Shown here in pieces: positions 609 through 62,310 of a stretch of DNA of 64,000 nt. Under the pieces are notes generated by a model that made no database searches, was not told where the DNA came from, and saw only the letters and a list, made by a program, of their open reading frames with translations. Both the position numbers and the translations under genes were made by a program. Positions within the stretch are counted from its first letter, which is position 1. The number at the start of each line of letters is the position of its first letter. This stretch comes from Astropecten irregularis (taxonomy: Eukaryota > Echinodermata > Asteroidea > Paxillosida > Astropectinidae): contig OZ020248.1 of assembly GCA_963971285.1 (NCBI GenBank), forward strand, positions 5,518,001-5,582,000, written 5' to 3'.

Positions 609-880
609 TTAAAGGTAATATCATACTTTGGTTTTTATCAAAGAAATACAGATTCATGGGCAAAAATATCAAGGAAGATACTGCAGTAACAGTCATCTGT
701 GAACATTTCAGTCCCATACGGTATAGGCCTACCAACTTTTTTGAGAAAACAGTGAAAAACAGCCACAGTATTTCTTAAGTCTTTTCTCTTTTATTTTTTG
801 ATCTTTTAAAAGATTTTCTACCAGTATATCTCCATACCCTGAAAGTTATACGTAAATTGTGAACATTTCTGTTTGGGTAT
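609..880 (+). mobile_element. TTAA MITE, subfamily A, internally deleted, 3' end lost
   Basis: The copy starts at TTAA|AGGTAATATCATACTTTGG and shares the family interior (ATTCATGGGCAAAAATATC, CTGTGAACATTTC). The right terminal repeat is missing, and about 100 bp around the central palindrome is deleted. It abuts a fragment of a subfamily-B left end (586-608), which suggests one copy landed in another. TAGGCCTA occurs inside at 724-731. Confidence 0.8.
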
Positions 881-1455
881 GTGGTCAATTCGTTTCTATA
901 CGCATGCGCTCGGTGAAGGCCATCAGAGCGCAAGATAGTCCTACATGACTATTTATCACAAAAAGGACATTATGAAACTACTTAAGTAAATCTGTGCTTA
1001 AGATTACCATAATAGACGCATTACATTGCATGTGCAGTTACTGGCATAAGCTAGTACATGACATACTAAAGTTTAAGCTGATTACACGCATACTAATGTA
1101 GGACGTTTTGGGAAAGTGCTTTTTTAAAAACACATTTAGGCCCAAGTTATGATCGTGGGATTCTGATGAATAATTCATTGCGTTCTTCCCTTAATACGTA
1201 CACCCACCTCCCCAGTACAAATCGGATTCCATTCAACTTTGAAACAAATCCTGTATTACTATTCATGTCGTGCTGCATGCACATAATGTTTCGTGTATAA
1301 TGCAAGTCATTCCTCTGCCCAAAATTAAATGGAAAAAGAAAATCATTCTTAGGAAGAATGGATGAATCGGATTACGGAGGCCGTTGGCCGTATAAGTGCA
1401 GCTTGCAAGTCTCGGTGGTATAAGCTTGCAGCTAGATTAATGATGGACGACATCG

Positions 1456-1822
1456 ATATACTTTGGTAAGAAACCAAAACAGAAATGTTCACAGATTTAC
1501 GTATAACTTACAGGGTATAAAGATGGTGGTGGTATAGAAATATACCGTTAAAATGTTTCCGCCTGAAATGGTGTATTTATTCAAAAATGTGTAAAACAAC
1601 GACCGAAAATCTTTTTGATCTTTTAAAATAATGATCAAAAATAAAAGAGGAAACACTTAAGAAATACTGTGGCTGTTTTTCACTGTTTTCTCAAAAAGTG
1701 GGCACCATGGGACTGGAATGTCCACAGATGACTGTTACTGTATCTATCTTGATATTTTTGTCCATATATCTGTATTTCTTTGATAAAATCCAAAGTATGA
1801 TACGTAAACTAGCTACCTTTAA
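1456..1822 (-). mobile_element. TTAA MITE, subfamily A, left end truncated
   Basis: The reverse-oriented copy reads ATACTTTGGTAAGAAACC at the left and CTACCTTTAA at the right. It contains TTTTAAAATAATGATC, a disrupted form of the central GATCTTTTAAAAGATC palindrome. Confidence 0.8.
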
Positions 1823-2240
1823 CATCAGATTGCATGCTTTTTATATTTGCCAGCCTGCATCTAGGGAACCGGAAAGCGGCGCCAGCGGCAAGCGCGGAAA
1901 TTGCGCCCCCAATTCCAACTTCTGTTGCCAATGGAAACAAAAATCAGACAATTTGAAATTGGAATCTTTATTTATTTGTTGCATTGGATTAGATGTCCAA
2001 GTTGAACAGTCTACAGCTACCTTTTCTGCCTTTGCGTTTTTTGCGCCCGTAAAAAGTAGCGCCCGGGGCACGTGCCCCCCTTTGTCCCAGAGATATCCAT
2101 ACGCTACTGTCTTTTTGTGCATTATTTTGTCAGTCAGTACAACCACAAAGTGTCACCATCAGTTTCTGAACAATTTTTGAGTCCCAGTCTTCGATGTGTC
2201 GTTACAATTGTATTTGCAGATGTGCTTACCAGATTGGACC

Positions 2241-2611
2241 TTAAAAGGTAATATATATCATACTTTGGTTTTTATCAAAGAAATACAGATTCATGGGCAA
2301 AAATATCAAGACAGATACAGTAACAGTCATCTGTGAAAATTTCAGTCCCATACGGTGCCCACCTTTGGAGAAAACAGTGAAAAACAGCCACAGTATTTCT
2401 TAAATCTTTTCACTTTTATTTTTGATCTTTTAAAAGATCAAAAAGATTTTCGGTCGTTGTTTTACTAATTTCTGGATAAATAGACCATTTCAGGCGGAAT
2501 TTTTTTTACGGTGTGTTTCTACCACCACCATTCTTCATACCCTGTAAGCTATACGTAAATCTGTGAACATTTCTGTTTGGGTTTCTTATCAAAGAATGAT
2601 ACTACCTTTAA
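2241..2611 (+). mobile_element. TTAA MITE, subfamily A, near full length
   Basis: TTAA bounds both ends. Inverted ends carry CATACTTTGG at the left and AAAGAATGATACTACC at the right. The centre is GATCTTTTAAAAGATC. Length is about 370 bp, typical of the family here. Confidence 0.85.
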
Positions 2612-3867
2612 TAGCTTTGGCTGACAAAGTCGGCCTACCTTCTTTGCATTGCGCGGCACGGCGGTGAACGGCCGATCACCAAAGTGGCTTCGAAACCTTT
2701 CTAAATTTAATCAACAGAGGGCAGTATGCAATTTATTTATTCATTAATTTCATTCATTATCAATTTTTCTTTACTTTTTTTCCTTGTATTTCGGGATTGC
2801 ATTCACGTTTTCTCGAAACAGTTTAAACTTTTTTCAGTCGAATAAATTCAAATATTGTAGAATATAATTCGCGGGTGTTTTTGTATACGCGTGTAGTAGG
2901 GGTCGTTTTGTAGCTATTTCACGAAGCCCTACGATCGATTGTAACTCGAGTTTCAAAGGATGACCCATCGTATCCTACGTAGGGCTACAATGCATCATAA
3001 GTCCTACGATTGATAGTAAGTTACGACGAGTGTGGTGAAATCGACCGCTGAGCCCTGAAAAACATGGTTACAACGGCAATTAATGGTCAGTTCGAAAAAG
3101 AGGATTCTTCACGTGATACTTCAAAGTTGTATATTGTGTGAAGAAGAGCGGTATAATAGGCCTAGACAATTCTCATTTCGCAATATCTGGGTTTGGGATG
3201 CTCAAGTTTTGGAGAAAACGTTTACATCTCACTATATTCTGTTTGTTCGACGGATTGAGCTGAGATTTATATACCGTATGCATGTACAAATGGATAGGAG
3301 AGCGCATGCATAAAGCTAAGATTGACCGCTCCATGATTTTGAAAGGGACGGATTTACTCTCCAAATTTCCAAAATTGTTGGGTTTGTTCATCTTGAATAA
3401 TATGAAAAATCAGTATTCTATAAAACCTCTTGAATTTTCACTCCACTTTCGTCATGATGACGTAGGCATATACGTGGTCCATAATATGTGGATTGCGTTT
3501 TTTAAAGTCCCTTCAAGTTCAGTTGTACGTAGGCCTATAGGCCAAAGCCTATCCAAGTGATTTTTCACTCATTTGAAATACACCGGTAACGGGTAGCTTA
3601 TGATATCAAATGGCTGAAGGGTTTATTATTTAAAGCCTTTCCACTGCAAACGTTTATGGTTACATGTATATTCATGATTATTCACGACCGATACTTGGAC
3701 GGGTTTTGAACCTCCACCCGCTCATCCCCAGTCCCCCGAGAGGGGCAGAGATGTTCAGTGCTGTAAGAGTGTGACTAACGTTATAGCCTGGTGTATAGGC
3801 CTATTCAAAATATTAAACGAAACAAACAAATCCTAAAACATTTGAGAATGATTAGGGGCCAATTTGC
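2612..3867. other. Intergenic, no gene seen
   Basis: Apart from the repeat at 2915-3055, nothing codes convincingly. TAGGCCTA lies at 3157, 3530 and 3796. Confidence 0.5.
2915..3055. repeat. Inverted-repeat-rich short element
   Basis: The block runs from TATTTCACGAAGCCCTACGA to GGTGAAATCGACC and contains CCTACGTAGGGCTAC and related inverted pieces. Its last 35 bp (GATAGTAAGTTACGACGAG) recurs at 7289-7320 and 61812-61845, so it is a dispersed repeat. Confidence 0.55.
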
Positions 3868-5161: not shown

Positions 5162-6597
5162 GTACTAGACGCATTATGTACGAATAGCGCAATATGCACC
5201 TCATTTTTATTAAGGAATTTATAGAAAATTACATTTAACATTCAACAAATGATTATTCCCTTGGTTGTGTCCACTAAATAAGGCCTTAGGGTTCGTAGGG
5301 ACAATATGAGGACACTTGCCAATATATGTTGTTAGAAAGGCAACATTTCGTTACCATTATAGGATCACAGACCTAAGAATAGAGGTTAATTTGTGGTTTT
5401 TGCGTGTGACGTTATAGGCATTAGGCCTATAGGCATGATCCCGTTGTGTTTAATATTGATTCGTTTCAAAAGTCAGAATTCAAAATCATCAAAATTAGCT
5501 GGGGTGCCTAGTTATAATTTTTAATGCAGTTGTTTAATGCAGCTTGATCACCTTTGTCATTAGTTTATTCACTTTCAGACTGAAAAAATGACATTACCAA
5601 TCTTGTGAATAACACCTTTAAAATTCAGGAAGGGAACTTGGTCATTTACCGAAGATTTCAACCTCCGTCTCCACATTATTGACAGACCCTTATAATAGTA
5701 TCAAACTTTGGTTAAGTTGATAGAACAGCTGCGGTCTGTTCATAATTTGATTTGTCATGAAATAAAAACAAACCTGTGACATTTCCAGGTCAATTGATCA
5801 TTGGAAACAGTAGAAAACTGCGAAAACCCGTTGCAGTATTGTTACGCGAAATTGTAATTGTGAGGTTTTTACTCGGAGATCAAAACTGTTTTCGGTCTTT
5901 TGTTTTACTCTTTTCTGGAAAAGAAATACGGCATTTCAGGCAGAAACATTTTAACGTTATATGTTTGTACCATGTCTATCTTATACCCTGTAAGTTATAG
6001 GTAAATCTGTGAACATGTCTGTTTTGGTGTCGCACCAAAGTATGATAGTACCTTTTAGTGGATGTAGCGAGATTGTTTCAGGATGGCACAATACTAAAAC
6101 TCTCAGATGAACATCAATCACAAATGGTATATGTTTTACTCGATTATATATAAAACAATGAACAATGATTAAGACACAATAGGCCTATGTCATAATATTT
6201 ATATAACATTATAGTAAACTATTATAATCAATGATAAAATGCACTCTTAATACAGACAATTTGACCTGTGTATTTTTGTTTAATTAGTGTGCAATTTTTT
6301 CTTCTTTATGATATTATATATAATAGTCTATACACAAAACTAGTACCGTATATTAATATACATGAAATACAAATGGAGATTTACAAATAGACGTAGTAAT
6401 TATGGTTTCCCATAGGTTTGTGCACAAACACGTATTACACAATATTAACGGCTTTTCATGCACAGAAGACATAGTATTAATCTTATAAAATATGTGCCTC
6501 GGTAGTTTGTGCAATGGTTGGATGATTATAACATTCAAACCATTATTTTAAGGCAATGAATAAGCTTTTTAACAAGAATATATTCATAAATATTTAC
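5162..6597. other. Intergenic with one diverged MITE
   Basis: No gene seen. TAGGCCTA occurs at 5422 and 6180. The 6.1-6.6 kb stretch is very AT-rich. Confidence 0.5.
5694..6056 (+). mobile_element. Diverged MITE with mixed A/B subfamily features
   Basis: The ends are subfamily-A-like (ATAGTATCAAACTTTGG and CCAAAGTATGATAGTACC). The interior has subfamily-B text (ACAAACCTGTGACATTTCC, GATCAAAACTGTTTTCGG). It may be a recombinant or an intermediate. Confidence 0.65.
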
Positions 6598-6893: not shown

Positions 6894-8479
6894 ATGTGAG
6901 ATAGCACCACCAGAATGATTGGAAATCGCAGAAAATCACGCATTCAATACACGGGGTTATCACCGCTGAATTTGGCGCTTACGGAAGCAGATAAATTTGT
7001 GCTTATACGAGATGCAATTTTCATTTCTGCGCATTTTGTATTTTGCTTAATTGGATATCTCGCTTACTCGGCTTCCATGAATATTCTCAGCCATCCTTGT
7101 ATAAGCGACGAATGAGTATCATAAACACAACATTTGGCCGAAACTTGCAGATCATGCCGCGAGGCTTTTGATAACAATGTTCGGTGTAAAATCTTTGTGA
7201 AATCGAAACTGTGAGAGGCGATGATTATAGCATCTCATCTGCCGGTTTGAAACCGGAGAGAATCCTGGAGATAGTTATACCTGGGCTTGATAGTAAGTTA
7301 CGATGAGTTTGGTGAAGTTGATGTTGAGTCAATTCTTGCATTGTTTACGGGTGTTTTCATGCTGTGCACCGCCTGAGTGAGCCATGACGTAGGCCTACGC
7401 AACTTCCCGCTCATTCTGTGTTCGCTTCTCACAATGCTCAATATAAGCACAGTGTCTCCTCCCACTTAATTACTATAGGTTTTTCCTGGTCATTTTCGGC
7501 CAATTTCATTTTCACGCATTCGTGTTGACGTGATTTTGCCTCGGTTGAAACCGTCACTCGAGTTCACTTTGATGCATCCGTATTTAGCATTGCATTCAAT
7601 TTATTCAACAGTCGTTCAGTTTAGCCATGCAAAATCTGCATTCATTTTAGCACGCTGCCAAAAGCCGTTGCGAATTTGAAGGCTATTCACAAATGGAATT
7701 TTAAATTGAAGGCGATTCTTTTTATTCGCCTTATGCTTGTTTATACATTTGCTTGCACATGAAGTGAAATCGAACGACTATTTTGAGGTGCCTTGCAGTT
7801 TCACGCGAAATGGAATAACGCAGCGTTTAAATCCGCTCATTTGCCGAAAATGACCGGGAAAAACTTCATTATTTTCATCATAATAATATCATACAGTGTT
7901 AGATATTTTAAATAATTGAACATACTGTGTTTAACACCATAGCAAATACATTTATATTTACATCCTCGGCAAGTTGTATAAGGCTGGCACGAACTTTTTC
8001 CTGAGAAGAGCCGCCCAAAGGCACTTCAACGCATTCAGTGTATATACCGCTATACACTTTCATTATTATGCACGTGGCAAAACCTGATCTTATAGTGCAG
8101 CAAAACAGCGGTGAGATGGTAAATTATTTAGCTGTTATGCTACTCTCCAGTACTCCTGTTTGTCTATAATTGTACTATCCGTCACTCCCATTCCTTTAAG
8201 AAAAACGGAGGCAGATGAATCGGCGCGTCGGATCAGAATACTGAGCCTAGCGGAGACACTTTCAAAAACGGACATCCAGGTCCTTTGCCGCCAACATCGG
8301 TTTGTCTAGCGGGGATTTCTATCTGTCAATTTCTCCCGTGCATTTCAGGCCTAAAGATATCGGCACTGTATATAAGATGCTTCTCACTCCACTGCACTAT
8401 AGAAAGATTGTATCAAAAGCTCTTTACAAATCTTCCAAGGCTGTCACCTGCAGACGAACAAGACGTCTTGTGAGCTGTC
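6894..8479. other. Intergenic, no gene seen
   Basis: Contains the inverted-repeat element at 7476-7868, a repeat fragment at 7289-7320, and TAGGCCTA at 7390. Short open frames have no family features. Confidence 0.5.
7476..7868. mobile_element. Inverted-repeat element, ~390 bp
   Basis: The left end GTTTTTCCTGGTCATTTTCG matches the right end CGAAAATGACCGGGAAAAAC inverted, with one mismatch. The interior shows no coding potential. Confidence 0.65.
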
Positions 8480-8853: not shown

Positions 8854-10476
8854 ACTGAGTGTATTATAGCCCCTGAATTGAAGACGAAACTTCGCGAAGC
8901 CTTTTATTTTCTTTTAAATACATATGCATTTTATTTCATGTTTATAAAATATAATTATATATCATTTATTTCTGCACAGCCAAATCAAATTTGAACACTA
9001 CTATATATACATTCTTCATAATTTTATACAAAATAATAATGTCTGCTGACCAGAAACATCGTGAATTCTCCAGATCTAGGCTGATCTAGGCCCTATAACT
9101 ATTAGAGCGCAGTACGGGGTTCTTCCTGTGTTCAGAATCATTATCACTTACACTGTCTTCGAGTTTGGTTTGGGTAAAATCCTTTGTGTTTGACTCAAAA
9201 TACCCACTTCAAATAGTGCCCTCATATTGTGTCAGCCATACTTTGAAAAGGCTATAAATAGCGATGTATGTTTCTCTGCATTATACTCGGTATACATTTG
9301 CGCCCGCGGACTTTCCTTTCGCGGTTAGGTCCGGAAGTGTGCAGCGATATGCATGAGACAAATGCATTATGGGACAGTTTGCGCCCAAATTCTTTTGAAA
9401 TTCGCTATAAGCATGATATTTCTGTCTTAATAAAAACCGGATTAACAACCGTGAAATGAGCCATTTTTGTGCTAAGCAATATTTTGTGCTAAGCAGCTCT
9501 ATGAAATTGGCCCCGGATGAAGCCTCGCCACCCACTTAGATCAAGTTCCAATACTTGAGGGTTGGGGCTAAATAAATACAATTCAAGCCTCTGTTACAGA
9601 GCTTACTTAAGGTATAGTTCGTGACTCCGAAACTGCAAAAGGCACATTCAAATCAATCTAACACAACTTAACAATAATTTAAACTAACTTGAACGAACGA
9701 ACTTGGGGATGAACGAAGACATAAAATAATGCAGCGAACAAAAGAACGAGCGATCGAAATGAACGACAAACAAAACAAACAGTAGGCCTATTGTTATACG
9801 AGCAAACAAATAAACAGTCGATATATACATTACAAACAAACAGACGAACGAATGTATCAGACAAACATAGACAAACGGAAATAGGAGTGGAAAGAATCAA
9901 GTTGACGACGCCCTGGGGCAAGCCTTAGCTGCCCCCACACTCTTCCCGTGTGTGTTTCGCAGACTCCACGCCTGCCTCCCCCTCACCAATGCCCACTCAA
10001 CTCTCCTCACATGTAAAGGATAGTACCCAAATGATTTCTTCAACACCAGCAGCTCTTTCACAATTTTCACTCTTTCTTCTCCGTTCATTTTCTTCTCGAC
10101 TGTATCCTTCTTTCAACAACTCCTGTTGTGATGTCACCCAGTCGCCCACATTTTACTCTGTGTTAGTTACTCTCTCATTTTATACACTCCACAATTTGCC
10201 CCATGGCGCCCTGACTTCTCGCATTTTACAAACAAGCTTAATGTGTTCTGATTTACAGGGACTCCAAGTTGTTTTTTTTTTTTGGGGGGGGGTTATTTTT
10301 TTAATAAGATCTACACACACTTGGAACTATATATATGACTATATCTTGGTCTCTTTTTAATAGACCTCGACCTATTTATGTCGTATTTCACTTGTAAACG
10401 TTAAAAAATCGACAAAATATACTGTTCTTAATACGGTGTTACTTTCTGGTTTCCGTTCATTGTAACACATTTGCAG
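8854..10476. other. Intergenic, no gene seen
   Basis: 9640-9860 is rich in GAACGAAC and AAACAAAC. The open frame at 9950-10360 is Ser/Leu low-complexity without homology that I recognise. TAGGCCTA occurs at 9783. Confidence 0.5.
9405..9514 (-). mobile_element. Partial MITE of the GGGGCCAATTTCATAG family
   Basis: Only the right end survives: TTTTGTGCTAAGCAGCTCTA then TGAAATTGGCCCC. Fuller copies are at 53977-54226 and 57130-57324. Confidence 0.55.
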
Positions 10477-10706: not shown

Positions 10707-12689
10707 CTCTGCCGTACAGGCAGTTAATGATACATTAAGCTCACGCAGTTTTCTTACCATCATTAAGGCAAAAGTTACCACACGGAAAAATCAAAACTCG
10801 CCAATCGAGATGCGACGCGTCGCAGAGCTTTATGAAATCGGCCCCAGGCTCTGAAACTTACAGAGTTTCCACAATTTCTTTCTCTCATACCAATTAAGTA
10901 TTTACACTAGCTCCTCAGTTTGTAAAACGATACATCTCACACTCTCGTATTACATAGATATCATTCACTTCAACTGGCAGACTTTGTAGATAATTATATT
11001 GAGAGTGAGGTTACACAGTATACGTGCATAAATTATGATTTAAAGGTGCAGAGTGAAATTGAATTACAAATGTACCAATCAGCAGAAACAGTATAAATGT
11101 GATCACATCATGCAAAACGGTGTTTGTTAATCTCGCCCTGTTTACGGTACAGTGTGAAGAAATCGTACAAAATATTCACACCAAATTTACCGTGAATCCT
11201 CTATCATCTAATATGTACATTTTTTCTAAAGCGTGTTCTATTTGAGGCTTAGGCTTGGGCTTACAGCAATTCATGTCAAAAATCACTATAGCCCAGATGT
11301 CCATACCAAAGACGTTATTTTTTTTTACTAATGAAAACAATAGCTTTCGCGGCCCAAGAGCGGTACTAAATAGTGTCACTTGTCCGTTGAAGCATGGAGG
11401 CATAAAAAGAATACCTTCATGGTTGAACAGACCTTCCCAAGCAGGGATTTGATAAACAGGCGATTTCAAATCATGAGTGCGCCCCCAAGAGTTTGGGACG
11501 CACTATTTGGAATCAACAGTATTGGTACGATAAAGATATATGGTATTAGAGAGTAAGGCTTACAAACAGCATTATCATAAACCAACTCCGAATTGTGAAA
11601 CAGTCCTTCATCTTTTGTGGCTGTGAGTAGGCCTATGCATTTTCAGTATTGCATTCTTCTTTTACACCAGATTGTCATTCTCATCCCTTTGACGTATTTT
11701 CCTGCCTATGTCTGACCCCATTCACTCCATCACCAACTTCTTTCACGTAGAGGTGCCAATCCAAACTTATTTATAGCATCACACGCTGAATGCTATGTCT
11801 TCAGCTGTAATTCTTCCTCACCGTGTCTACGACTGCTGCTCTCCCCTTCCAAACCTATCACGCTCTCCACCTCTCTCTATTTCGTTCAGCACACTTCTTC
11901 TCATTCACATCACACGTGTATCTTTCGTCACGCTACATCAAATGATTATTTTGTTTTGACCCTGTGAAAAACAAGTGAGTTGTACTGGGATTTAGTCCTC
12001 ACCGGCCCATCCTCCTGGCCATGGGCCTTCTTAGCAACGACGGAGATCTGTAATCAGTATGCATTACCCGAGGATATATCAAGAAATCTTGGAGGAGATG
12101 TTAAATCCCCCCCCCCCCCATGTAGCCGCATGCAAAGACTCGTTTGACGTAAGCACGTCCCAAAACTGAAAGGTAAAGGACTGCATGGTGGAAACACGGA
12201 GTCCTACGGGGGAACGAAAGCTATCGCAGAAGAGCTCTAGCTTTCGAGGTTGGTTGTGCAGAGCGCGCACTGGTTAAACATTGCCGATAGCCTGCTATAA
12301 TGGGTACATGACGCGCGTCGGTTATTGTTTGTATACGAATAACAACGTGTTCTCCCTCGTGTTAGGTCTCAAAATCCACCCCACATCGGGTGCATGCTCG
12401 AAATAGCGCCAAATGTGTCTTCAGTATAGCAGAAACTGTGTGTTGTATGAGCGCTGCCATGTTGAAAATCACATGATATTACAAAAACGGCTGCGATTTT
12501 GCCGCCAAAAGATTAAAATGGGAATAGTTCAATCTACGTAGCGCTCTTTTTTCAAAAGATCAATGTACTTCGGAAAAGCCACTCGTGATTTTAAAGTGAA
12601 AATGATAAAAATATTAGGTTAAAACTAAGGTCGGGTAATTATAAACCTAGTTTGGAAATTGGTCCAAATTTACGATAGTCTTGAGTTTC
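10707..12689. other. Intergenic, no gene seen
   Basis: Downstream of the minus-strand GPCR. Poly(C) at 12108-12118 and TAGGCCTA at 11628 are the only notable features. No clear polyadenylation signal was identified for the GPCR. Confidence 0.45.
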
Positions 12690-12806: not shown

Positions 12807-13527
12807 TTAGAGCTTGCGTGCCCTGGTCAGGACAGACGTGAAGGAATTTCGCTGGTGTCCGGACGATGCCGTAGTCCGCGCGGTCTCATCCAGGCAGCCC
12901 TTGAAGCCTACTTCTATTGGAATGAACTTTTTCTTGCGATGTTTGCCAGCGCCCAGACACGAGCACGACTTCTTCAGGTTCGCCCTAAAATTCTGGCTGA
13001 AGAAGGAGTAGAGGAGCGGGTTGAGGCAGGAGTTCAGATAGATGGCTACCCGACAGACGATGCCGAGGTAGAAAGACACTGTGTGATTCATGACGATGGT
13101 CGGAGTGCAGTTTATCAGGACTAAGACGTGCCAGGGTAGCATGCAGACGGCGAAGGCAAGGACCAGGACGTGCGCCATGCGGGCTACCTTACGGCGTGAC
13201 GCCTGCTGGCGTTGCAGCCCACCGGCGCCGAATTCCGGTTCCTCACTCCCGGCCCTGGTGAACTGGGCGCTCCGCTGGAGGGTCTTGGCCATCCGGACGT
13301 AGCAGACGGACACCACGGACAGAGGCAAGCAGTAGAAGAGAAAGAAGATGCTGCCTTTGAAGGCCCTCATGGCTTCGTATGATGGCCAGCTCTCAGTGCA
13401 GATAGTGGTAACTTCATCGTGTGAATAGATGAGGGTGATTGTGTCTGCTGCTAGGGCGAACGGTAGTTGAGTGGCCAAGGCTACTACCCATACGGCTGCG
13501 ATCGTCACAATAGCTTGTGCTTTGCTT
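12807..13527 (-). CDS. Peptide-type rhodopsin GPCR, exon 2 (TM4 to C-terminus)
   Basis: This is the second coding exon of a class A GPCR and it joins the exon at 21448-21959. On the minus strand it starts after the acceptor TAATACAG with one base that completes an Arg codon, followed by SKAQAIVTIAAVWVVALA (TM4). It encodes residues 172-410. Cys214 in loop 2 would pair with Cys132 of TM3. TM5 is near residues 229-249. A basic third loop (RQQASRRKVARMAH) leads into TM6 with CMLPW (299-303), a variant of CWxP. TM7 has NSCLNPLLY, an intact NPxxY. The tail KKSCSCLG is a plausible palmitoylation site, and the stop is TAA at 12807-12809. Family knowledge: such receptors sit in the plasma membrane and signal through G proteins. 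The sequence resembles peptide receptors of the galanin/allatostatin/TRH type, but the ligand cannot be assigned by reading. Codon use is GC-rich compared with the surroundings. Confidence 0.93.
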
Positions 13528-13577
13528 CTGTATTAGGAAATTTCAAGGAGGAAAAAACAAACTCCGTTCAAAAACAA

Positions 13578-16206: not shown

Positions 16207-17114
16207 ATTTTGATTTCAATATTTCGAATAGGCCTATATTAATTTTGATTACCATTTTTTAGAAAAACCTTACGTCCTTGGGTCCTTGTGAATCCAAAAG
16301 AAGTCCATAATTATATAAATGTGTACAAATCAAGTCCCCCAAAGCAAAAAATTTTCCCTTTTTTTAAATCTCTAATTTTGCGCATGTATAGCAGAGGACA
16401 TACAACTGGTGCGTTCGTTCAACTTTCACGGGGCAGCCCTGACCTGGAATGGTCGTGTATACTGCACCAAACAAGCAAGACGGTGTGGACGAGATTGAAT
16501 TGTATCGACTCGTGGAAGCTAAACGAACGCGCCCTTAGAATGCGCGCGTTTTTGTTGCCTCTATACCAATCAGATTTTGAGATACTGTGTACGTTGTCTT
16601 CCCATCTTGTTATCAGCAAAATAAATATAACGAGTCAAAGAAACCAGATACTCCCTGCAGTGCATGGAGTTTAGGCTGTAAACTGAGAACCAAATTGTGA
16701 TTGGGGCGTAATAAAAAAGATTTGCTTTCTTTATTTTTCATTTTCCCTGATAAAAACCTCCCCAAAACTTTCACTTTGTTTGTTTTTTCATTGCAATAGA
16801 GCTGGCCGGGGGACCCAGGTTTTGCTAAATCTGACCCGATATGGAGGAAGTGCTCAAGGCGGATTTTGTCGCTGTTTGAAGTCGCAGTGTTTTTTTTATT
16901 TTGTGGACACAGTTTTATTAAGCCTATAGATTGGATTTTGGGTAGTTTTGTTTTTTTAGGATGGCCGGACGCAGAAACTTGATTTCAAACTTCAATTCCC
17001 ATAAGTTTCAGTGTAAAAATCTGTTTCAAACTACTATAAATAAAATATTTTCTTTACATGAAAGCCGAGCCGGTCAGCCTGTGTTTACAATGCGGTTTTG
17101 TGGGGGAAAAGTTA

Positions 17115-21323: not shown

Positions 21324-21447
21324 TTACGAAAAGTGCGAACGAAATATGAAGTGCGAAAGTACGAACGATTCTTGGTGTTTCCGCAAACCGATCCACATAC
21401 CAATCGTCACCATGCATGTAAAGGCTCGAACTTTTCATACATCTTAC

Positions 21448-23770: not shown

Positions 23771-25487
23771 GCCACCATGACTGTGCTTAGTGCTTACTAT
23801 AAGAGCCAATCGGCACTTCCACACTTAGGGGATTCAGGTGTGATAACCTGATTGGTTAACGTCTGGAAACCAGTGACTGTTCTCGTGCCATGCGGCAGTT
23901 TTGCACCGAACAGGTCGGCATTGCAGCCGATTTCACGAAACTTCAAATTTTGCATAACTTACGCAACATTGCAAGTTGCACAAGTTATGCCCGTTTCACG
24001 AAACTTACGCAGCAAATGTACGTTACAAATGTACGTTGCGAAAGTTACGCAACATTTTGTGAAATAACTGAGCACGACGTTTTGGCGAAGAATTGGGTGA
24101 CTAATTTAGCTCAGAATCGGCAGCAAGTATAACGCCAATAAATCTGGCACAGGAACGAGGTGATTGGGTAGATGATGCTTGGTATTCGTCTACAACCCAC
24201 GTTAGCCCCCGCCTGTCACGGTTCCCAATCGGGCCTAAGGCCTCTTCATACCACTACCGGTTGTACATGGGTCTGGCCCGTGTAAAATTAGTGACTGGCC
24301 TTTTCCACAATGTGACCTTTTAAAGGCAGTATCTTACTTTGGTGTCAAAGTACAGATTTATGAACAACAATATCAAGGGAGATACAGTCACAGTCATTCT
24401 GTGAAAATGTCAGTCCCATACGGTGCCCACTTTTTGAGAAAATCTTGAAAACGGCCACAGTATTTCTTAAGGCTTTTCTCTTTTATTCTTGATCTTTTAA
24501 AAGATCAAAAAGATTTCCGGTCGTTGTTTTACTCATTTCTGGATAAATACACCATTTCAGGCGGAATAATTTTAACGGTAGGTTTCTACAAGCCTCATCT
24601 TCATACCCTGACAGTTATACGTAAATCTGTGAACATTTCTGTTTTGGTTTCTTACCAAAGTATGATAGGCCTATACTACCTTTAACACGGCATGGACCCG
24701 TGCAAAGCATCGGGTCCGTTGCCAAGTGCTAGCTTGTCCAGTCGAGTTCCAACGTCCGGCTGGCCTGGAAGATATTCACGAGTACATCTTATAGGGCTGT
24801 GCGGAGTCGCTGTCTACAGTTAGTCTGTGTAATGTGATGGGTACGTAATGGGTGTGCAAGTGTACGAAGCAGAAATTGAGTCCAAAAGATTGGAACACAT
24901 TACTTGAAATGGGATATATTTTTCAGAAGCGTTTTTAACGCTAACACATTACATTTTTAGAAGAACGCATTTTGAAAAATCGAACATCATTCTTACGACT
25001 CGGATGCGTGTCCAAAAACCTAATCAAATTTACAATTGAATATCTTCATGTTTCGGATGTTTTTGCAAAACAGATGATTTTTTTCAAAGATCGATGTTTT
25101 TCGATTTGAATGCAGTTCCACAGTTCTGAGTCCCCTCATAAAACAACCGTATGCATAAAACAGCCGTGGAGTATGTGTTAGGTTAAAAGAAAATACGTCT
25201 TTCATCCGATTTCATCCGTGCTTTTCAGATTGATGATCAGCGCAGGAAAAGTGGAGAAACGGATCATGGAGCGCGCTCATTGAAAGCAAAGAGTTTTTTT
25301 GTTCTGCAATGGACTAGTAAATGTCTTGTGTGTACGGTGAGTTGGAGCGGGTGTTCGAAATTCATGTTTGCATGGTCGGGGCCATTTCATGTTCGCTTAT
25401 TATAAAAGTGACATGTTTTTCTGGGTGGTAACCTGCTTTTCCTGAGCAATATTGTGCTAAGCAAAGTTTTGTGTTGAGTTTCATAAC
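23771..25487. other. Intergenic with one MITE
   Basis: No gene seen. 23930-24070 has repeated TTTCACGAAACTT and TACGCAACATT, suggesting another diverged repeat. Confidence 0.45.
24320..24685 (+). mobile_element. TTAA MITE, subfamily A, with 8-bp TAGGCCTA insert
   Basis: This copy follows the family consensus and keeps TTAA at both ends. The right terminal repeat CCAAAGTATGATACTACC is interrupted after CCAAAGTATGA by TAGGCCTA (24666-24673). Confidence 0.88.
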
Positions 25488-33291: not shown

Positions 33292-33667
33292 TAATGCTGA
33301 TGTGCCGCGTTGCATATACAATTTGCATGCAGGCATGTATCAGACCGTTCGTATACGTATAGGCCTATAGTGTGGAGCAGAACGGGTGATACTCAGCCTA
33401 TCCTAGTACAGGGTTCGGTTAAATTTAATCTGCGTGTATAAAACAAACATCCACTATGCAATAATATTATCTTTTAATCAGGAAGTATTCTGTTCATCTT
33501 AGCGGAAAGATCTCAATTCGGCTCAAGTCTTGTAAAATAATATTTGCACAGGTATATCAAGGTAGCATTTGAATGACGTTGCAGTAAAGTGCCCAACAAA
33601 ATAGTGGAAATCCGAAAACATCAAGTTGAAAGTGGTAAGCGTACACATAGATATAAATAAAAACTAG

Positions 33668-35227: not shown

Positions 35228-36836
35228 ACATAACTCCTCTTAAGAATGATCAATTTGTTTCATTCTTTTTTCTAATAACCAAGAGAGAATGCTTGTTAAA
35301 TATATGCTTTACTGAACTTTCGAGTGTCATTATTTTGCTTCATTTGAAAAACATCACAAATCTCGGACCAGTTCTTTTTGACTCACCCTGTATACAACAA
35401 ATTGTTTATGATCATGGCCTCGGCGGACTTTTCTGTTTTGTAAGGGTTCGTCATCAACTGGTCATTCACTTTGGTATGATACCAAATTAATACCAAATTG
35501 ATACCATTATTTATAACAGTTTCTGTAGTTCTGATTGGGTTTACTCCCAATCCTTTAAGTCTAGGTCCCCTACGTCTCAAGTGATCACCGGCACTACAGT
35601 AATTTTCTTCAGCATGGCGCCTTGGGCCCGTGCCAAACGAGGTACTTTCTTTTTGTTATTTGCTCCCAGACGTTGACTCATATAGACAACCAACTATTGC
35701 ACTGCTTGTGAAAAAACTTCGCTTGTACAAAAAGACAGAACGTGTGTTGTTTTTTTCTGAAGGTGTCTCGTCATCCCTAAAGGATTTTGTTCAGATTGAA
35801 AGGTGGATGCTATTTCGTCCTCGCCGGCTTGTCTGAAATTGACAACGCTCACAATTTATTACGACTTACTATAATTTCTCTTTCGTGGTCGCCTAGAGGC
35901 AGTGTTTTTGTGGGGGGGTGTAGGAGGTACATAAAATGTGTATTTGATAATTCAATAGAACATAACCAGTCCTCTTTAAACTTGGCATCGCGTTGCACTG
36001 GCCATAGAAATGGAGGATGTTTTCCTCTGGTTTTCTTTTTGTATAAGAATAGGAGAAAGGGTGGACTTTTTTTTATAGGCGCGCAGGCTGAGCAGGCAGC
36101 AAGCAGCCCGCGGCTGTGTTATCATCAAACATGTTACTTTCTCTCCCACACACTACCTTGTTGACTTGAATTGAGTCAAGTTCCTGCAGTTCATGTCCAC
36201 GTTGGTTTTTTTGATTACGTGTGCTACTAGTGTCGGACTCGGATTAGGTTTAAAGCCGAACTTCGTTCGTCGACCCCCTTAGAATAGCATATTGTATGCC
36301 AAGCAGAAACGTCAATAATCGCAACTCAGTTGGTCCGACGTATAACATCATGTAATTCGGGAAATGATCCAGGATTTTGGCAATCTCTATCACTACCATG
36401 ACAGATGACCGTTTATGTCGTGTGCATGGGTTTTGGGGATAATGTTTACAGCAATAATAATTTGTGAATGAAATGGGTTGAATTGTTTAGGCCTACTGTG
36501 TTTGGGCCATAAAAATATATTCGATGCACAAAAAGAATTTATGAAAATGATGACTACTTTATAAATAGTTTGGAAAACAAGAAATTCAGATTTCCGATGT
36601 CAGAAGTTCGACATCTGAACATTTTGTTAGAAACAGGTTCCATTTTGATTCAGGCACTGGATAAAAAAGTTGAGTCAGATTTTCCCCTTTAGATTTAAAA
36701 TATTGACAACTTGTAGTTGTTAGCGGCCAAACTTTCAAATAAAATCAAATTTGTGTTATTGCGTTTCAGTCAAAAAAACCAAAAAACGATCAGTGCTGCA
36801 TCCTAAACGTGTATTTCTAACCTTTGCGAAATAAGG
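35228..36836. other. Intergenic, no gene seen
   Basis: Several open frames of 70-125 codons are present but lack domain features, splice context or repeat-independent composition. TAGGCCTA occurs at 36488. Confidence 0.45.
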
Positions 36837-40255: not shown

Positions 40256-40624
40256 AGGTACTTTACTTTGTTGGTAGCATACCGAAACAGAAATCTTCAC
40301 AGATTTACCTATAGGCCTTACGCACAGGGTATAAAGATGGTGATGGTAGAAACATATCGTCACTATTTGTATGCCTGAAATGCTGCATTTATCAAGAAAA
40401 GAGTAAAACCAAAGACCAAACATATTATGTTTGATCTCAGGGAGATCAAAACTCCTGGTAATAAATTTGAAAATACTGTGTGGGCGTTTTTCACTGTTTT
40501 CTCAAAAAGTGGGCGCCGATATGGGACTGATATTTTCACAGATGACTGTTGCTGTATCTTCCGTGATATTTTTGCCCGTGAATCTGTATTTCTTTGACAA
40601 GAACCAAAGTATGATATTACCTTT
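40256..40624 (-). mobile_element. TTAA MITE, subfamily A, diverged left end
   Basis: The left end is degraded (GAGGTACTTTACTTTG) and the right end is AACCAAAGTATGATATTACC. The interior is typical, with a possible altered TAGGCC insertion near 40312. Confidence 0.8.
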
Positions 40625-41617
40625 GATATCAATAATATGCAGAACTTAATATGCACTGAGTCTACCACTAAACTACCTGTAAGTACACATTTGCAATAAT
40701 GTGTTTGATGCATATCACTTGTCACCTTAAATGGTTCAACCAACCCCTTAGGCCTATACTAAGTTGATTGAGTATAATTTAGTCATATACTGTACATGTC
40801 CTTTTCAATATTATGAGCTTGATTTTGTATGCTTAGTTCAATGTGGAATACACACAACCAAACGAGATATAAATTTCGTCCAAAATATTTTCAGACGCAT
40901 ACATTGAGTTAGATGGCCAGTGTATAACTCTCCATTATTGTGAATAATCGTGAATTACTTTCAATATTGTGAATATGATTTTGTGTTCTTATAGTACAAT
41001 ATTGAATAATATACAAAAGAAAAAAATCATAAGATAAATTTCTTTGAAAATATATACAGACGCATATACATCGAGTTTGATGGCCAGTTTATAACGCTCC
41101 ATTATAATTTTTTGGTATTCATTTTTGATATATAAACCCCAGGTAATCGTAAGTCTTGGGGGTCTTTTTTCATGGAGGAAATTTAATCAAGACATCAAAT
41201 AAAGCCTATCCTGCTACAAATCCTACTTTCAGACGATATGGCACGCATATTGTTCCTTAACAAAAAAAATTGGAATGGCACATTGTATGAATATGAATAA
41301 ATGGCACACCCGTGGCGCGAAGACGTACTAATGTACAATACAGCAAAAAGTATAATCTCAATTTCACCAATGATCTCGCGTATGATCAAAACTTCCCAAT
41401 GGCGAGGATGTATTCACAATCGATTGGAACTCATCACTGGAACTCTGACATCAACTGCCAAGAGATGTTTTATCCATTAAGTATGAACTATCTGAAATGG
41501 ATCTCTCTATGGGATATATCCCCTGGTATAATTCCTTTTATACCAAACCGATATACACTGTCCAGTGTCCACTGACTAGTAATGAAATTGAAACCTTATA
41601 GATACGTCACCGTCAAA
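40625..41617. other. Intergenic, no gene seen
   Basis: A ~150-bp imperfect duplication (TTTTGTATGCTTAG..CAGACGCATACAT, then CAGACGCATATACATCGAG) lies at 40810-41105. TAGGCCTA occurs at 40749. Confidence 0.45.
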
Positions 41618-44893: not shown

Positions 44894-46976
44894 TTTAAGA
44901 TGATGAGAAAATGGCAAAATGATTAGAACGCTATTTTCCCAAAACTAACATGATCGTGATTGCACTGTGTAAAACCTTTACCGTTGCTTGATATCCGAAT
45001 CAGGTTTTCCTTTGTTTGTTTGTTTTTGACAAAATAATGGTCGTTAGAAAATTCTGGGGTTTTATTTTAAAAAAATATTCCCAACAATAGTATGACCGTA
45101 CCGTGCCGTTCAGACGATCTTGGCCCAATTCCACTCATGTTTCATCCGTTGAGCATACTGAAAAAAAAATAATGAATAATAATTCTCTCAATTCTAAAAG
45201 TAGAAAGAGGATAAACTTACCTCATATCCAGGAGATTGAGCAACATCCAGGTCCACTGAAAAATAAAAAAAAAACTCTCCGTTTTTATTCCTTGGTAATT
45301 TACAAACAACTGGCAGGTGGTTGCGAAAGGTAGTGACGGTGGGCCTACTATCTCCCGAATCCGTACTCCGCAGTTTTGTTTCTCATGACGGGCGATGTCT
45401 CCGGGTCTTATACCGAGGGGCTGACCGTCCTGCGTGATGGCGGGGGAGCTATAATACTTGACCTGTTTCAGAGGAGAGGGTCTGACTTTTGCTCTGCTTG
45501 AATCGGCCCCATCGGCTGTTGCACATCGCTAGGGGATATTATGGTTGTATGTAATGTATACAGGCCTATGATTCTCTACGGTCACCGTCCAATCACTGTA
45601 GCGTTAGTTTTTGACGTATCACACATAATTATTTACCAAGAGTGTCTATGCAGTGATGAAAACGATGGTACATACGTCATCAGACAGCACAAGTATAGTC
45701 TTTGGAAAGGAAAGGATGTTGCCGATAATAGTACCGACGTACGGCGCCATGGAGTGTAGCTTTCCGAGTAAAGCTAATCCATTTTCCAGTCTAATCAAAA
45801 ATCAATACCGGACGAAGCTCTCATTTTTTACAACTTGTCATCGTCCTTCGTGATGGACATCGTCGTCCAGTGCTTGCAGAATGCTCCTCGCCCATGCTCA
45901 ATTTGTCCTCCTCGTCAAGGTTTTATGAACTCGACATATTTATTCATAAAAAGACGAAGAAATCCACAAGTACCCTTGTATGGCGCCCTCATCGACAAGC
46001 ATAATTACCAAGATGGCAAAGAAACCTATGTAAAAGGGTCTACTTTTATCCGTTCCATTTAAACACCTCATATTTGGAGTTTTTAAATCAACTGAAAGCT
46101 TACATACCTGAATATGATGTAAATCTCGTCGTGTACGTACGCAGAAAATACTGTCTAAAACTGGCCAATATTATAAGAAATGACAATTTTGTTTAATACA
46201 ATTTCCCTGGGTATTATAATAATTACACGCACGCACATTTATGTTTCTATATATTCAATAATATTATGCAAGCACACCATTGACCTTCGTCATCAAAAAT
46301 AATAGGACCTGGCGCCTATTAGCAGAGTTGCCCGATAGTACCAAAAGCTTTACAAGATAAACTTTGGTTGCAGGCCAAACCCCAAGTAAATAGGACACAA
46401 TTGTGATAGCTGAAATTAAGTCAAAAACAATAAACGACACGTGACCATTTGGTTGTTAATCCTAATAATTAGGAGGAATTTTCATGCTTAGATTTTTCTT
46501 TTGGTGTGCTTAGCAGCTTTGTGAAAAAAAAAACAAGTAAAGACATCCGTTGTGATGTGGTCCGCTGATTGGTCAGAAGTTGCAATCTGCCCACGAGAGG
46601 GCGCTGTGACAGTAAACAATGAGAGAGCGGAAGTATTCATCTACCACATGGCGCGTCAGACTTGTCTGGACTTGTCTGAATTTGCTGGATGGAACTGATG
46701 CAACTGAAGCACATGTTAGGAATAAGATTTCGCATTACTACTGACTTCTGCCTTGGCCTTGGAAGTTGAACAATCGATACGGTGGCAGAAGATAATGCCA
46801 AGTTCCTCAAATAATATGATATTGACTGGGAAATTTGGTCAGTAATTCCGAGCCGATCAAGAAGCCATGTGCCAGTAATACCGTCTTGGTAAGTATAAAA
46901 ATAATGCAGCCGATCTTACAGGTTACAGCCATTGACAACATTCTTGGACTGGATATTTTTGATGTAGGCCTAACTG
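44894..46976. other. Intergenic, no gene seen
   Basis: Short open frames only. TAGGCCTA occurs at 46965 beside the next repeat region. Confidence 0.45.
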
Positions 46977-47757: not shown

Positions 47758-48030
47758 CCTTACCGCCTAACTGTTACATGTACATGTATTTGAAATTTTG
47801 TACGCTGTACATGTAGCAGTTTATCTTGCATGCATGTCCAAAAGTTCGTGGTATGACCAGTAAAACCTATTGACTTGGTATCTTTGCTCCAACAAATGTT
47901 GAATCAAAATTGAGTGACTAACTAAAAGGTAAGAAACTGCATGTATGCTACTCATTTTCTTCTTTCGTAAGAATTCCACTGACAGCCATTACAGAAAAAG
48001 GGTTAGGGGGGCCTAGCTCATCCGATGCTA

Positions 48031-49862: not shown

Positions 49863-50890
49863 TTTAAAATATGTTTGAATATGAAGCAACGTAGAAGTTC
49901 AAGGCCTAATTCTGTCCCAATCCTCGTAAATTCTCAGTACAATAGTGCTTGAATGACAACTACATGAGTACGTCTATAAAAATATGCAAATAAGTGCTAT
50001 CGTTTTTATGCTAGCTGGTTAAATTTCACTAAGTGCAAAAGGGTATGCTGCTCAGGGTCTTGCAGATTAATTAATGAGCTTGAAGCCATATCTGTATCCA
50101 GTACCTAGCTGATAAAGAATGCTTTAGCCTGGAAATAAATGGAGGCCACAGAGGCCATGGCCTTCGTTGCCCTGGTTCTTGGCCTTGGTACCCCCTTCAA
50201 ATATTTCCATAGACATTATGACTTTCCAATTGAAGTGCCCCTTGAAATGGAAAAGCAGCCTTGCCCCTTTCAGAACTTAATTCCAGTCTTGATGCTTAAT
50301 AAATCAGGGCGTGTTGTTTATGAAAGTGAGTGTCTCTAGTATATGGCATACTGTAATCTGTCAATTTGTGCTCATTAACCCACCATCAGGGATAATTTGC
50401 ATCATACGTGTATGTCATATATCCTAAGTGCTCGGATGCAAAAATGTCAATCTTTCATCATTAATTTCTCAGTTAAATATACGGCGCCCGTCTTCACACA
50501 CAGCTCAAATGTTCACGTGGTTTTTTTTTATAAATTGGGACGGAGACTGATCAAACGTAATCATGGAACACGTGGTTTCTTTTGTAATATATAAAGTCTG
50601 GTGATAAATTGACTTTCCAAACTGACACTGTGGTAGGTTGGTGCTTCATTATTGGTGCTCTACATATAGGTAGATCAGGTACAGTCTCTCTTCATTAATT
50701 GTCAGCTTGCAAATATTACGTGTGTGAGTTGATAGATGCATATACGGGGTGCTTGATGAAGGGCCATCTCTCAAGGCAGGTACAGATAGATCACTTGCGT
50801 GTGAGGAATACATCTGGGATGCCGGAGTGTATTCTGTAAGGTTCTTACTGACTGTCTGTAGCTTTTTATGGTCTTTCGTCCGCCGTCAAA
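49863..50890. other. 5' flank of the single-exon GPCR
   Basis: Contains the dispersed repeat at 50138-50280 and the presumed promoter and 5' UTR. No confident TATA box or initiator was identified. Confidence 0.4.
50138..50280 (+). repeat. Dispersed repeat copy
   Basis: The text GTTGCCCTGGTTCTTGGCCT and CCATAGACATTATGA recurs at 59263-59356. It is AT-balanced with no retained frame between copies. Confidence 0.6.
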
Positions 50891-51895
50891 ATGACCACTT
50901 TCTTTGATGTGGTGTATGCTATACTGCTGTTTGTATTAGCAGTCGCCATCCTTGGTAGCAACACGTTCTGCATCTTGGTTCTTAGGAAGCTCAGGTCTGT
51001 TATCGATGACGCCTCTCAGATTCTGATGATGTGGTTGAGCGTCGCAGACCTGTTGAATGGTTTGGTCTGCGTCTTACCTTTGGCAATGATAACCATCTTT
51101 ACGGTGCCTGAGTGGAACCTGTACGAGGCCAGCTGGCTGCTGTGCCGAGTCCAGGCTTTGATTGTGAAGATGGTCCAGATCATAAAAGTCATGATTCTCC
51201 TCGGGCTCAACTTTGACCGCTACGTCGCTGTGACAAGGGCCTTGCGTTATCACAGCCTGGTCACGGCCAAACGAGTCTACATCGGAGTGGCCACTCTGTG
51301 GCTTGTCTCCTTGGCTTTGTCGCTTGTTTATGCGGCGACTCTGGCGTGGAAGTTCGAGGACAACAGCGTCAAGAACATCAACATGTGCATCTTTAAACTG
51401 GATATTGCGAATTTCCTGGTTTGGGTAGATCTGATTTATCTAGTCATCATTCCAACCATCGTGACAGTAATAATATACATCCGACTGTCGGCATTAGCAC
51501 GACACCATGCCGCTCGGATTGCTGAGGTACACACGGGAGATCCTGAAGCAATCAACAACCAGCAGCAACAGAGACAAGCCCGGAAAGCTGCCAACACTTT
51601 CCGAGTGATGACTCTAGTCTTTGCCATTTCGTGGGCGCCCATTCTCATGGCCACCTTCCTGGCATCCTACATACCAGAAAAGGGCAGCTACTGGATCCAG
51701 CGGTTGTTTCTGATCGTTTCATTCTGCAGTGGCTTCTGCAACATAGTCGTCTACTTTCTCAAAAATGGCGTCATCCGTGCGGCTAGCAGGACAATGATTC
51801 ATGAGAAGTTTGCACGGTGCTCGCAATGTCTCAGAAGCTCAAAGATCAGGGTTCTCAACTTCTTACCACATGCTCATCAAGCAGCTGCAAGATGA
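50891..51895 (+). CDS. Single-exon rhodopsin-like GPCR with variant TM6/TM7 motifs
   Basis: This open frame of 334 residues starts at an ATG with A at -3 and ends in TGA. Seven hydrophobic segments can be placed at about 8-31, 44-70, 86-108, 130-152, 174-198, 238-260 and 269-290. Signatures: GSN in TM1; LSVADLL in TM2 (49-55); Cys85 and Cys166 for the usual disulfide; DRY at 109-111; a proline in TM5 (188). TM6 has SWAP (247-250) instead of CWxP, and TM7 has NIVVY (284-288) instead of NPxxY. The extracellular N-terminus is only about 7 residues with no sequon. Loop 3 is basic and Gln-rich, and the tail has Cys310 and Cys313. Family knowledge: intronless receptors of this kind are often lineage-expanded in echinoderms and cnidarians. 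Ligand class (amine, purine or other) cannot be decided by eye. The ORF is intact, which argues for a functional gene. Confidence 0.9.
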   Translation: MTTFFDVVYAILLFVLAVAILGSNTFCILVLRKLRSVIDDASQILMMWLSVADLLNGLVCVLPLAMITIFTVPEWNLYEASWLLCRVQALIVKMVQIIKVMILLGLNFDRYVAVTRALRYHSLVTAKRVYIGVATLWLVSLALSLVYAATLAWKFEDNSVKNINMCIFKLDIANFLVWVDLIYLVIIPTIVTVIIYIRLSALARHHAARIAEVHTGDPEAINNQQQQRQARKAANTFRVMTLVFAISWAPILMATFLASYIPEKGSYWIQRLFLIVSFCSGFCNIVVYFLKNGVIRAASRTMIHEKFARCSQCLRSSKIRVLNFLPHAHQAAAR

Positions 51896-59230: not shown

Positions 59231-59239
59231 AAAAGCAAG

Positions 59240-60850: not shown

Positions 60851-60924
60851 AAGATAATCATAGACCCTGAGTGGGAGAGAAAGTTTGGCACCAAAGATGT
60901 TGATGTTTCAGACCCGACCGTCAA
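60851..60924 (+). CDS. Candidate internal exon of an unidentified gene
   Basis: The segment follows a strong acceptor (TTTTGTCTCCCTCCAG) and ends at a strong donor (AA|GTAAGT). Only the phase-0 frame is open, encoding KIIIDPEWERKFGTKDVDVS followed by DPTV, and it ends in phase 2. The composition and two good splice sites make a real exon likely. It may belong to the same plus-strand gene as 56815-56884, with other exons unseen in between and beyond the window. No family is recognised, and direct joining to the 56.8-kb segment is ruled out because the required frame has a stop. Confidence 0.5.
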
Positions 60925-61302
60925 GTAAGTAAGAAAAGCTATGATAATGCTACTCTGTGAAATCATATTTATAAGAGGAACCTTATACTTACAATGTAAC
61001 TGCATAGCTGATGACACTTTTGTGACGAGTAGTTTGTGTGGATTGCAGAGCACGATTGAACCCTTGTTGAAATTTGGAAGACTGAGTTGACGCGGGGTCA
61101 GTGATCCATGGGTGTAAATCTTTGACACATGTATTTGAAAACAGAATACCGTCTAGTGTGAAAAGCCCTAAAGATAGTTTAATAGTGTAGTGGAAGTCAG
61201 AAAGTTCTAACATGCTGCCAAATGCCAGCTCTCTGTTGCATGCATTCCAACACTGCATGCAAAGTAAGACTTGAAGCTATGCATGGTGGAAGTACTGAAA
61301 TT

Positions 61303-61365
61303 AACGGTTCTTCTCAGAACCACACACTCTTACAGAAGAGATTACATGGTGTCACCACAAACCTA
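61303..61365 (-). repeat. Half copy of the palindromic foldback family
   Basis: GGTTCTTCTCAGAACC, AGAAGAGATTACATGG and TGTCACCACAAACCTA match the right arm of 28891-29138. The left arm and centre are absent. Confidence 0.75.
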
Positions 61366-61706
61366 GCTACCATCCTTTTAACACTGCATGCATTATTAGC
61401 AAATCTTTCTGCCAGTGGTTATATTTCACATGATATTGAGGTCATTAACTTTACGAGAAATTGCACTGGCAGCTCATTTCCTTAAAATCCAGATCACAGT
61501 TGAATTCCCCCTGCCCCGTCCTCCAAAAGGTCTCCGTATAGTCTGTGGTAAGATTCAGATGAACTCAAAAGTTCAAAATGAACTCCTGGTCCCTGTCAGA
61601 CCAATTTTTCAAGTCCAGTTCACAGTGGCTTAGGAAATAGATTATTCAAATACTTGTAGTTCAGAGCACAATGACCCATTGTAGTGCATCAGGGACTTAA
61701 AGACCT

Positions 61707-61850
61707 GGGGCCAATTTTACGGCGCTGCTTAGCAAAAAAATCTGCTAAGCATGAGATTTCTGTCTACTAATAAAAACATAGGAATGCAACACACCATAAG
61801 TCCTATAATTGATAGTAAGTTATGATGAGTTTGGTGAAATCAACCCCAGT
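61707..61850 (+). repeat. Two abutting repeat fragments
   Basis: The first fragment is GGGGCCAATTTTACGGCGCT with GCATGAGATTTCTGTCTA (GGGGCC-family MITE). The second is GATAGTAAGTTATGATGAG, as at 3015-3050. Confidence 0.55.
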
Positions 61851-62310
61851 AATGTGTAGTCAACATTAATTAGTATTTTTTATGGACATTCAACTTATTA
61901 GGAATGTAATGGAGTAATTAATGGGCCACCAAAAATGGATTCCTTTGAGTTTCTTCGCCAAGCAACGTTTTGCACTGATTTCTTTTTCAATTTTTTCTCC
62001 ATTATTTGTTTCGTCTGATGGTATTTTGTTTGTAATACTTTCTCTGAAGTTCTCTGCTGTCCTGTTGTTGCAGATAAAAATATCACTGTCCTTTGATTTA
62101 TGACTGAGAATGGTTCCTCTTCTAAGAATGAATTGTTTGCATATCCAACGCAAAATGATCCTCAATCGTCTGACCCTTGTATGTAGGCCTATTTAACTCC
62201 AAATTTTATATCCTAAAAGAAAATGAAAAAAACCATCTGATGTACTGTGACACTAACTTAAAGGTTACTGTGAATGCCATCACGTACCCCGGGTGTACCA
62301 CAGGTGCCTG

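Follow-up and report, generated by a model that had tools for sequence, protein, structure and literature searches.

The window analysed here is the whole 64,000-nucleotide stretch C11:5518001-5582000 of the 475.7-Mb Astropecten irregularis genome, and its subject is a palindromic octamer, TAGGCCTA, which occurs in it 16 times, together with a sister word, TACATGTA. An earlier note on this DNA had given 16 positions for the octamer, and we find that list exact and complete. Part of the evidence comes from copies of a miniature inverted-repeat transposable element (MITE), family A (MITE-A), represented in the window by 11 copies or fragments, which lie 5-16% from their consensus. The sites are as follows, with a strand given only for the MITE copies.

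609..882, plus strand: MITE-A copy with the putative 724 scar, from the alignment of copies
724..731: TAGGCCTA inside the MITE-A copy 609-882, as ACGGTA-TAGGCCTA-CC; net +8 against a sister, in an alignment that depends on gap cost
3157..3164: TAGGCCTA, exact word match
3530..3537: TAGGCCTA, then a further octamer in tandem, the degenerate TAGGCCAA; word match
3796..3803: TAGGCCTA, exact word match
5422..5429: TAGGCCTA, then TAGGCATG, a degenerate unit in tandem; word match
6180..6187: TAGGCCTA, exact word match
7390..7397: TAGGCCTA, exact word match
9783..9790: TAGGCCTA, exact word match
11628..11635: TAGGCCTA, exact word match
16229..16236: TAGGCCTA, exact word match
24320..24684, plus strand: MITE-A copy with the putative 24666 scar, from the alignment of copies
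24666..24673: TAGGCCTA interrupting the 3' terminal repeat of one MITE-A copy, GA-TA-GGCC-TATA-CTACC instead of GA-TA-CTACC, from the alignment of sister copies
33360..33367: TAGGCCTA; a looser empty-site relative in stretch L019, ACGTAGTG against ACGTATAGGCCTATAGTG in the window, suggests +10 (loose alignment, ~75% identity)
36488..36495: TAGGCCTA, exact word match
40312..40319: TAGGCCTT, a putative decayed scar in the MITE-A copy 40271-40627, net +6 in an alignment that depends on gap cost
40749..40756: TAGGCCTA, exact word match
46965..46972: TAGGCCTA, its end part within an 8-base repeat, GCCTAACT; word match and reading of the flanks
47775..47788: TACATGTACATGTA, two overlapping copies of TACATGTA, which has 8 copies in the window; word match
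62184..62191: TAGGCCTA, exact word match

A later inserted element at 46976-47764, with 45-base terminal inverted repeats, has GCCTAACT on each side, and it is this 8-base repeat that overlaps the 46965 octamer.

The octamer is strongly over-represented, as the earlier note had said, and base composition does not account for its counts. Dinucleotide shuffles of the window (n = 100) give a mean of 0.29 copies and a maximum of 2, the Markov expectation for the window with satellites masked is 0.40 at order 2 and 0.67 at order 3, and TAGGCCTA is a clear outlier among the 256 palindromic octamers of the window (Poisson p 4e-17), the runner-up being ATGTACAT with 10 copies against 1.9 expected and the other xxGGCCxx palindromes having at most 2 copies each. 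Genome-wide there are 67,886 copies, compared with 5,378 of the backwards control word, and 16 stretches of 10 kb (160 kb), chosen without regard to the octamer, hold 33 against 1.9 expected at order 3; in those stretches TACATGTA ranks first among palindromes (76 against 7.1 expected) and TAGGCCTA second. The preferred flanks follow RTAGGCCTAY, with a preference for pyrimidines, and not TTAGGCCTAA, on which ground a telomere-like origin is rejected. Over the first 0.95 Mb of contig C1 neighbouring octamers lie less than 300 bases apart in 16 of 99 intervals, against 3.1 expected, in part because some repeat families hold several octamers. One-mismatch copies are weakly in excess in the window (21 against 15.8, order 3; transitions 11 against 5.2, p 0.018; transversions 10 against 10.6) and number 70 against 42.4 expected in the 160 kb, where we estimate that ~28 excess copies per 33 intact octamers lie near the expectation for simple decay.

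Two octamers, those at 24666 and 724, had been read as exact gains of eight bases within MITE copies. At 24666 this holds: in one alignment each of the 7 sister copies that span the octamer shows an 8-base gap facing it (several distant copies shift with other gap costs, and copies 8470 and 22463 give 8 at every setting tried), and the terminal repeat that the octamer breaks is intact in the sisters. At 724 the comparison with copy 8480 gives a net +8 but is not clean, with two adjacent substitutions and a split into 4+5 at other gap costs. The TAGGCC block at 40312, also proposed to be related, is indeed a related, decayed insert, its gain being 6 bases and dependent on gap cost. One alignment of the 11 family-A copies places GGCC adjoining TA in 3 of 3 insertions of at least 6 bases, and an alternative alignment adds a 9-base insertion that lacks GGCC in the 40271 copy. 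Other stretches carry like gains, among them GTTA[TAGGCCA]TACG at the same MITE TATA (L018), a decayed TAGGCG insert in a MITE (L020), MITE inserts forming TACATG (L011, L014 and L018), and a separate repeat family, two copies of which read GGTATAGGCCTATTC and a third GGTATATTC, +6. MITE insertions of at least 6 bases with neither word also exist, e.g., TAATTC in L022. A one-strand profile alignment of 52 MITE copies or fragments yields 28 insertions of at least 5 bases (CATG 4, GGCC 2, others 22); several of the 22 are one variable tract, and this alignment fails to show 724 and 24666 as GGCC insertions. Two-strand profile alignments gave many false insertions and were set aside, and an unpolarised survey of gaps between repeat copies (326 places: 2 octamer, 3 half-octamer), in which single-sister deletions appear dominant, was not used as a rate.

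A genome-wide assay was built on a single TA, that of ACCAAAGTATGA-TA-CTACCTTTAA in the terminal repeat of the MITE. This TA is intact in 16,084 places and interrupted by 1-28 extra bases in 722 (722/16,806), with 0 for the backwards control, so that gains are far from confined to the two sites first noticed. The TA-free control site of the same MITE is intact in 2,307 places and interrupted in 4 (4/2,311; only 4-30 bases counted), and all 4 inserts end in a second CAG, in the manner of a local duplication, one of them also having CATG. For gains of at least 4 bases the comparison, which rests on one TA site and one TA-free site, gives a Fisher p of 6e-24 and an odds ratio of ~18, where the number for the TA site is an extrapolation from its first 100 rows. 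The first 100 of the 722 interruptions, which stem from three contigs only (C1, C2 and C8), include 69 with the structure TA..TA; most frequent as inner words are TACATGTA (13), TATA (11) and TAGGCCTA (5), and the net gains peak at +6 (30) and +2 (16). TAGGCCTA is thus a 4-base insert, GGCC, at a TA, with TA then on both sides, and the +6 product at a pre-existing TA equals the tetramer plus one TA. That the word arises by insertion was correctly proposed; the clean +8 unit proposed with it is rejected, since +6 is the most frequent product at the assay TA.

The anatomy of these inserts is informative. Among the first 100 of 168 four-base inserts, CATG accounts for 56 and GGCC for 21, followed by GTGA (4), CTAG (4) and CCGG (2) with the rest at 1-2 each, and 84 are self-complementary, one TATA included; TGCC, GGCA, CATT and CATA are possible decayed forms. 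All 45 five-base inserts comprise mainly GGGCC (8), CTAGT (5), CAGTG, CACTG, CAATG and CATTG (3 each), with GGCCC (2), CCGGG (2), GGACC (1) and others as minor classes, and their outer pairs are self-complementary in 25 of 45, where 1/16 is expected (p 7e-19). The 60 three-base inserts are CTG (17), CAG (6), ATG (6), CTA (5), GGC (4), TGA (4), GCC (3) and others; CTG and CAG, which we take to be the usual (canonical) Tc1/mariner scars, thus make up 23 of 60 at this same TA. The pairs CAGTG/CACTG, CAATG/CATTG and GGGCC/GGCCC are expected where one inverted end leaves two bases and the other three, which would give donor ends CAG...CTG, CAA...TTG and GGG...CCC.

The rate at this one site gives a rough prediction of the genome total. 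Extrapolation from the first 100 rows puts the rate per MITE TA at 0.00215 for TAGGCCTA and 0.0056 for TACATGTA, and the TA frequency in 224 kb (0.0676 per base) corresponds to ~32.2 million TAs in the genome; the product is 69,119 for TAGGCCTA against 67,886 counted, and 179,709 for TACATGTA against 156,842 counted. This agreement is rough, as the fractions come from 5 and 13 rows, the counts include background words, and the chosen MITE ends are intact and so perhaps young. The four-base insert counts give nearly equal estimates (35 places for TAGGCCTA and 94 for TACATGTA).

At the assay TA the sister word is inserted in the same manner as TAGGCCTA; it is enriched 9-fold in 221 kb and has distinct half-contexts in 83 of 84 cases. 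It is found, e.g., at window positions 22442, 22458, 47775 and 47781 and in stretches L010-L025, sometimes in tandem as (TACATG)n. The shares of the two words vary among 10-kb stretches (chi-square 63, 18 degrees of freedom, permutation p 2e-4), the TACATGTA/TAGGCCTA counts being 24/1 in L011, 3/6 in L018 and 1/8 in the first 10 kb of the window, and neighbouring words 20-1000 bases apart are the same word in 52 cases and different in 16. By share, L011, L012, L014 and L015 contrast with L013, L018, L022, L023 and L025. The counts of the two words are not anticorrelated across 22 stretches (Spearman 0.10, p 0.65). An enrichment of TACAGTA was dropped because MITE-A contains TACAGTA.

These results point, with good though incomplete confidence, to TAGGCCTA as the footprint that DNA transposons of the cut-and-paste type, inserting at TA with Tc1/mariner-like target use and having ends GGG...CCC, leave on excision. 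Such an element would insert at a TA and duplicate it, and its excision would leave GG from the left end and CC from the right between the two TAs, giving TA-GG-CC-TA; three bases kept from one end would give TAGGGCCTA or TAGGCCCTA, from which donor ends reading GGG...CCC would follow. TACATGTA would be the equivalent scar of elements with ends CAG...CTG or CAA...TTG, and the differing shares of the two words by stretch would follow if each element family hopped locally. We count in favour of this reading the preference for TA, the TA on both sides, an insert spectrum that largely splits into two inverted-end halves, the rate that roughly predicts the genome count, the mostly unrelated flanks described below, and the decayed copies. 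A transposon would then have once been present at each site, of a presumed Tc1/mariner-like kind; the retention of both ends may be a repair habit of this genome, and the regional clustering probably reflects local hopping. Of the origins that the earlier note had floated, a repair footprint thus fits best, given the insert spectrum at the TA.

The kind of scar is a known one; its scale and two-ended form are unusual. Short excision scars are also left by hAT, piggyBac and PIF/Harbinger elements, which differ in their target duplications (8 bases, TTAA and 3 bases, respectively, and not TA), and we know of no GGG...CCC ends in the Tc1/mariner superfamily. The footprints of Tc1/mariner elements such as Sleeping Beauty, Frog Prince and ZB resemble the present inserts in their TA target, the TA on both sides and the few end bases between; unlike them, the main product here retains two bases of both ends, which makes a palindrome, and there are tens of thousands of scars. 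One source gives 2-4 bp for Tc1/mariner footprints and 0-3 bp for ZB (PMC7913693), and another places the mariner strand cuts 3 bp apart (PMC5714172). Scars of two bases from a single end, which would read CA, TG, GG or CC between the TAs, are absent from the first 100 of the 722 interruptions, so that two-end retention dominates, unlike the range described for ZB. HIP1 (GCGATCGC) of cyanobacteria is likewise a scattered, over-represented palindromic octamer, proposed to arise by methyltransferase-linked biased point mutation (PMC4390886); the word here differs in being gained by insertion at TA and in an animal genome, and an origin by substitution near a methyltransferase site does not agree with the gains seen. 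Among the literature matches listed, titles and the beginnings of abstracts do not describe TAGGCCTA as an over-represented word or a scar.

If the footprint reading is right, excision of TA transposons, normally invisible in a single genome, becomes countable and mappable from single words, and word counts would give a measure of the excision rate, of repair that keeps the ends and of earlier local hopping. The genome would hold up to ~68,000 GGCC and ~157,000 CATG scars before background is subtracted, or ~0.2% and 0.5% of its TAs, and its palindrome excess would be explained without selection. It would also be a caution that over-represented palindromes can pass wrongly for protein sites.

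Two TA-flanked inverted-repeat elements with GG...CC ends were found, L021:598-1086 (GGGGCCGTCC..., with a 30-base perfect repeat) and L015:4098-4508 (GGCACTTTC..., with a 23-base repeat), and both are candidate donors only. A comparison of the MITE and of tandem octamers with viral and GTDB collections gave no match except one viral stretch (L001).

Several observations weigh against excision as the source. TA plus the L021 end has 441 exact genomic matches, far below the 67,886 putative scars, and a resident element at the assay TA was not seen in the 20 places read of 206 with ACCAAAGTATGATAGG; these 20, the ones outside earlier lists, comprise 11 scars (6 GGCC, 3 GGCCC, 2 GGGCC) and 9 places readable as neither. 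Of the first 100 interruptions 31 are not TA..TA, gains of +8 and +10 require an extra TA, and the lack of single-end scars noted above counts here too. Two inverted ends leave unexplained CTAGT (5), ATTGA (2), GTTGA (2) and GGTGG (2) among the 45 five-base inserts, ATG (6), CTA (5) and TGA (4) among the 60 three-base inserts and GTGA (4) among the first 100 of the 168 four-base inserts, and ATGA and TTGA likewise fall outside the scheme; some of these classes (CTAGT, ATGA, GTGA, TTGA, ATG, CTA) may be local duplications. The backwards control of TACATGTA, which is ATGTACAT, is also high at 75,642, perhaps because ATGTACAT occurs within the tandem form of TACATGTA, and tandem runs of the (TACATG)n type call for several successive events or for slippage. 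Finally, repeat families on contig C1 (L026/L027/L028 and L029/L030/L009) have 2-4 octamers at fixed, shared positions over ~1 kb.

An unlikely alternative, though the one that fares best, is a TA-targeted micro-insertion that involves no transposon, in which an enzyme or repair process opens the TA and inserts a tetramer, templated and self-complementary, together with a TA. The dominance of self-complementary tetramers, the period-6 tandem runs and the missing resident donor among the 20 places read agree with it, but the series none, CAG/CTG, CATG, CAGTG, CACTG, GGCC, GGGCC, GGCCC and CCGG reads as inverted-end pieces of several families. It is similarly doubtful that a single transposon-free, TA-directed system writes both palindromes, with GGCC and CATG preferred in different genomic stretches.

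That the octamer was inherited within dispersed repeats is very unlikely. The contig C1 families with octamers at fixed positions are what it predicts, but the half-contexts of the 49 octamers in 224 kb are distinct in 48 cases, and only 6 of 47 sites tested have spanning repeat relatives, none of those shown having the octamer (for site 724, 8 of 17 relatives are shown). Flank similarity among the window sites (12.86) is only slightly higher than the background (12.27, sd 0.26). Membership in longer repeats is therefore rejected for most sites tested, their flanks being mostly unshared, and holds for a few families. On contig C1, MITE-A ends in opposite orientation recur ~2.3 kb apart, e.g., 261384/263689, 426903/429204 and 553335/555604, as if part of a compound repeat.

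Even less credible is a protein binding site propagated by selection, e.g., one for a silencing or an architectural factor, an origin that the earlier note had also raised. A palindromic, dispersed and locally clustered word with a flank preference for pyrimidines would suit such a site, but the octamer is gained as insertions that break MITE ends, the rate at one MITE TA gives a rough match to the genome total, one-mismatch copies exceed expectation, and the same TA receives other inserts of like anatomy; selection on a site is thus not needed. Composition or chance has practically no probability left and is rejected by the shuffle, Markov and backwards-word counts (16 against 0.29-0.67 in the window, 33 against 1.9 in the 160 kb and 67,886 against 5,378 in the genome).

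The window holds other features besides. A minisatellite of ~20/41 bases (CTCACAAACACGCCCTCCAA) lies at 25485-25829, 26500-27164 and 31037-31474, and perfect tandem arrays are formed by a 13-base unit, GACTATAACGCGC, repeated 6.2 times at 34440-34519 and by TGGTG repeated 28 times at 42996-43137. A small inverted-repeat element adjoining TA starts with GGGCCTGTTTGTTTC (34244-34380) and has a second copy, GGGCTTGTTTGTTTC (48029-48145). Reading frames of rhodopsin-family G-protein-coupled receptors lie at 12807-13532 (minus strand), 21444-22031 (minus strand) and 50852-51895 (plus strand), the first of them similar to peptide receptors (bombesin, NPY, kisspeptin).

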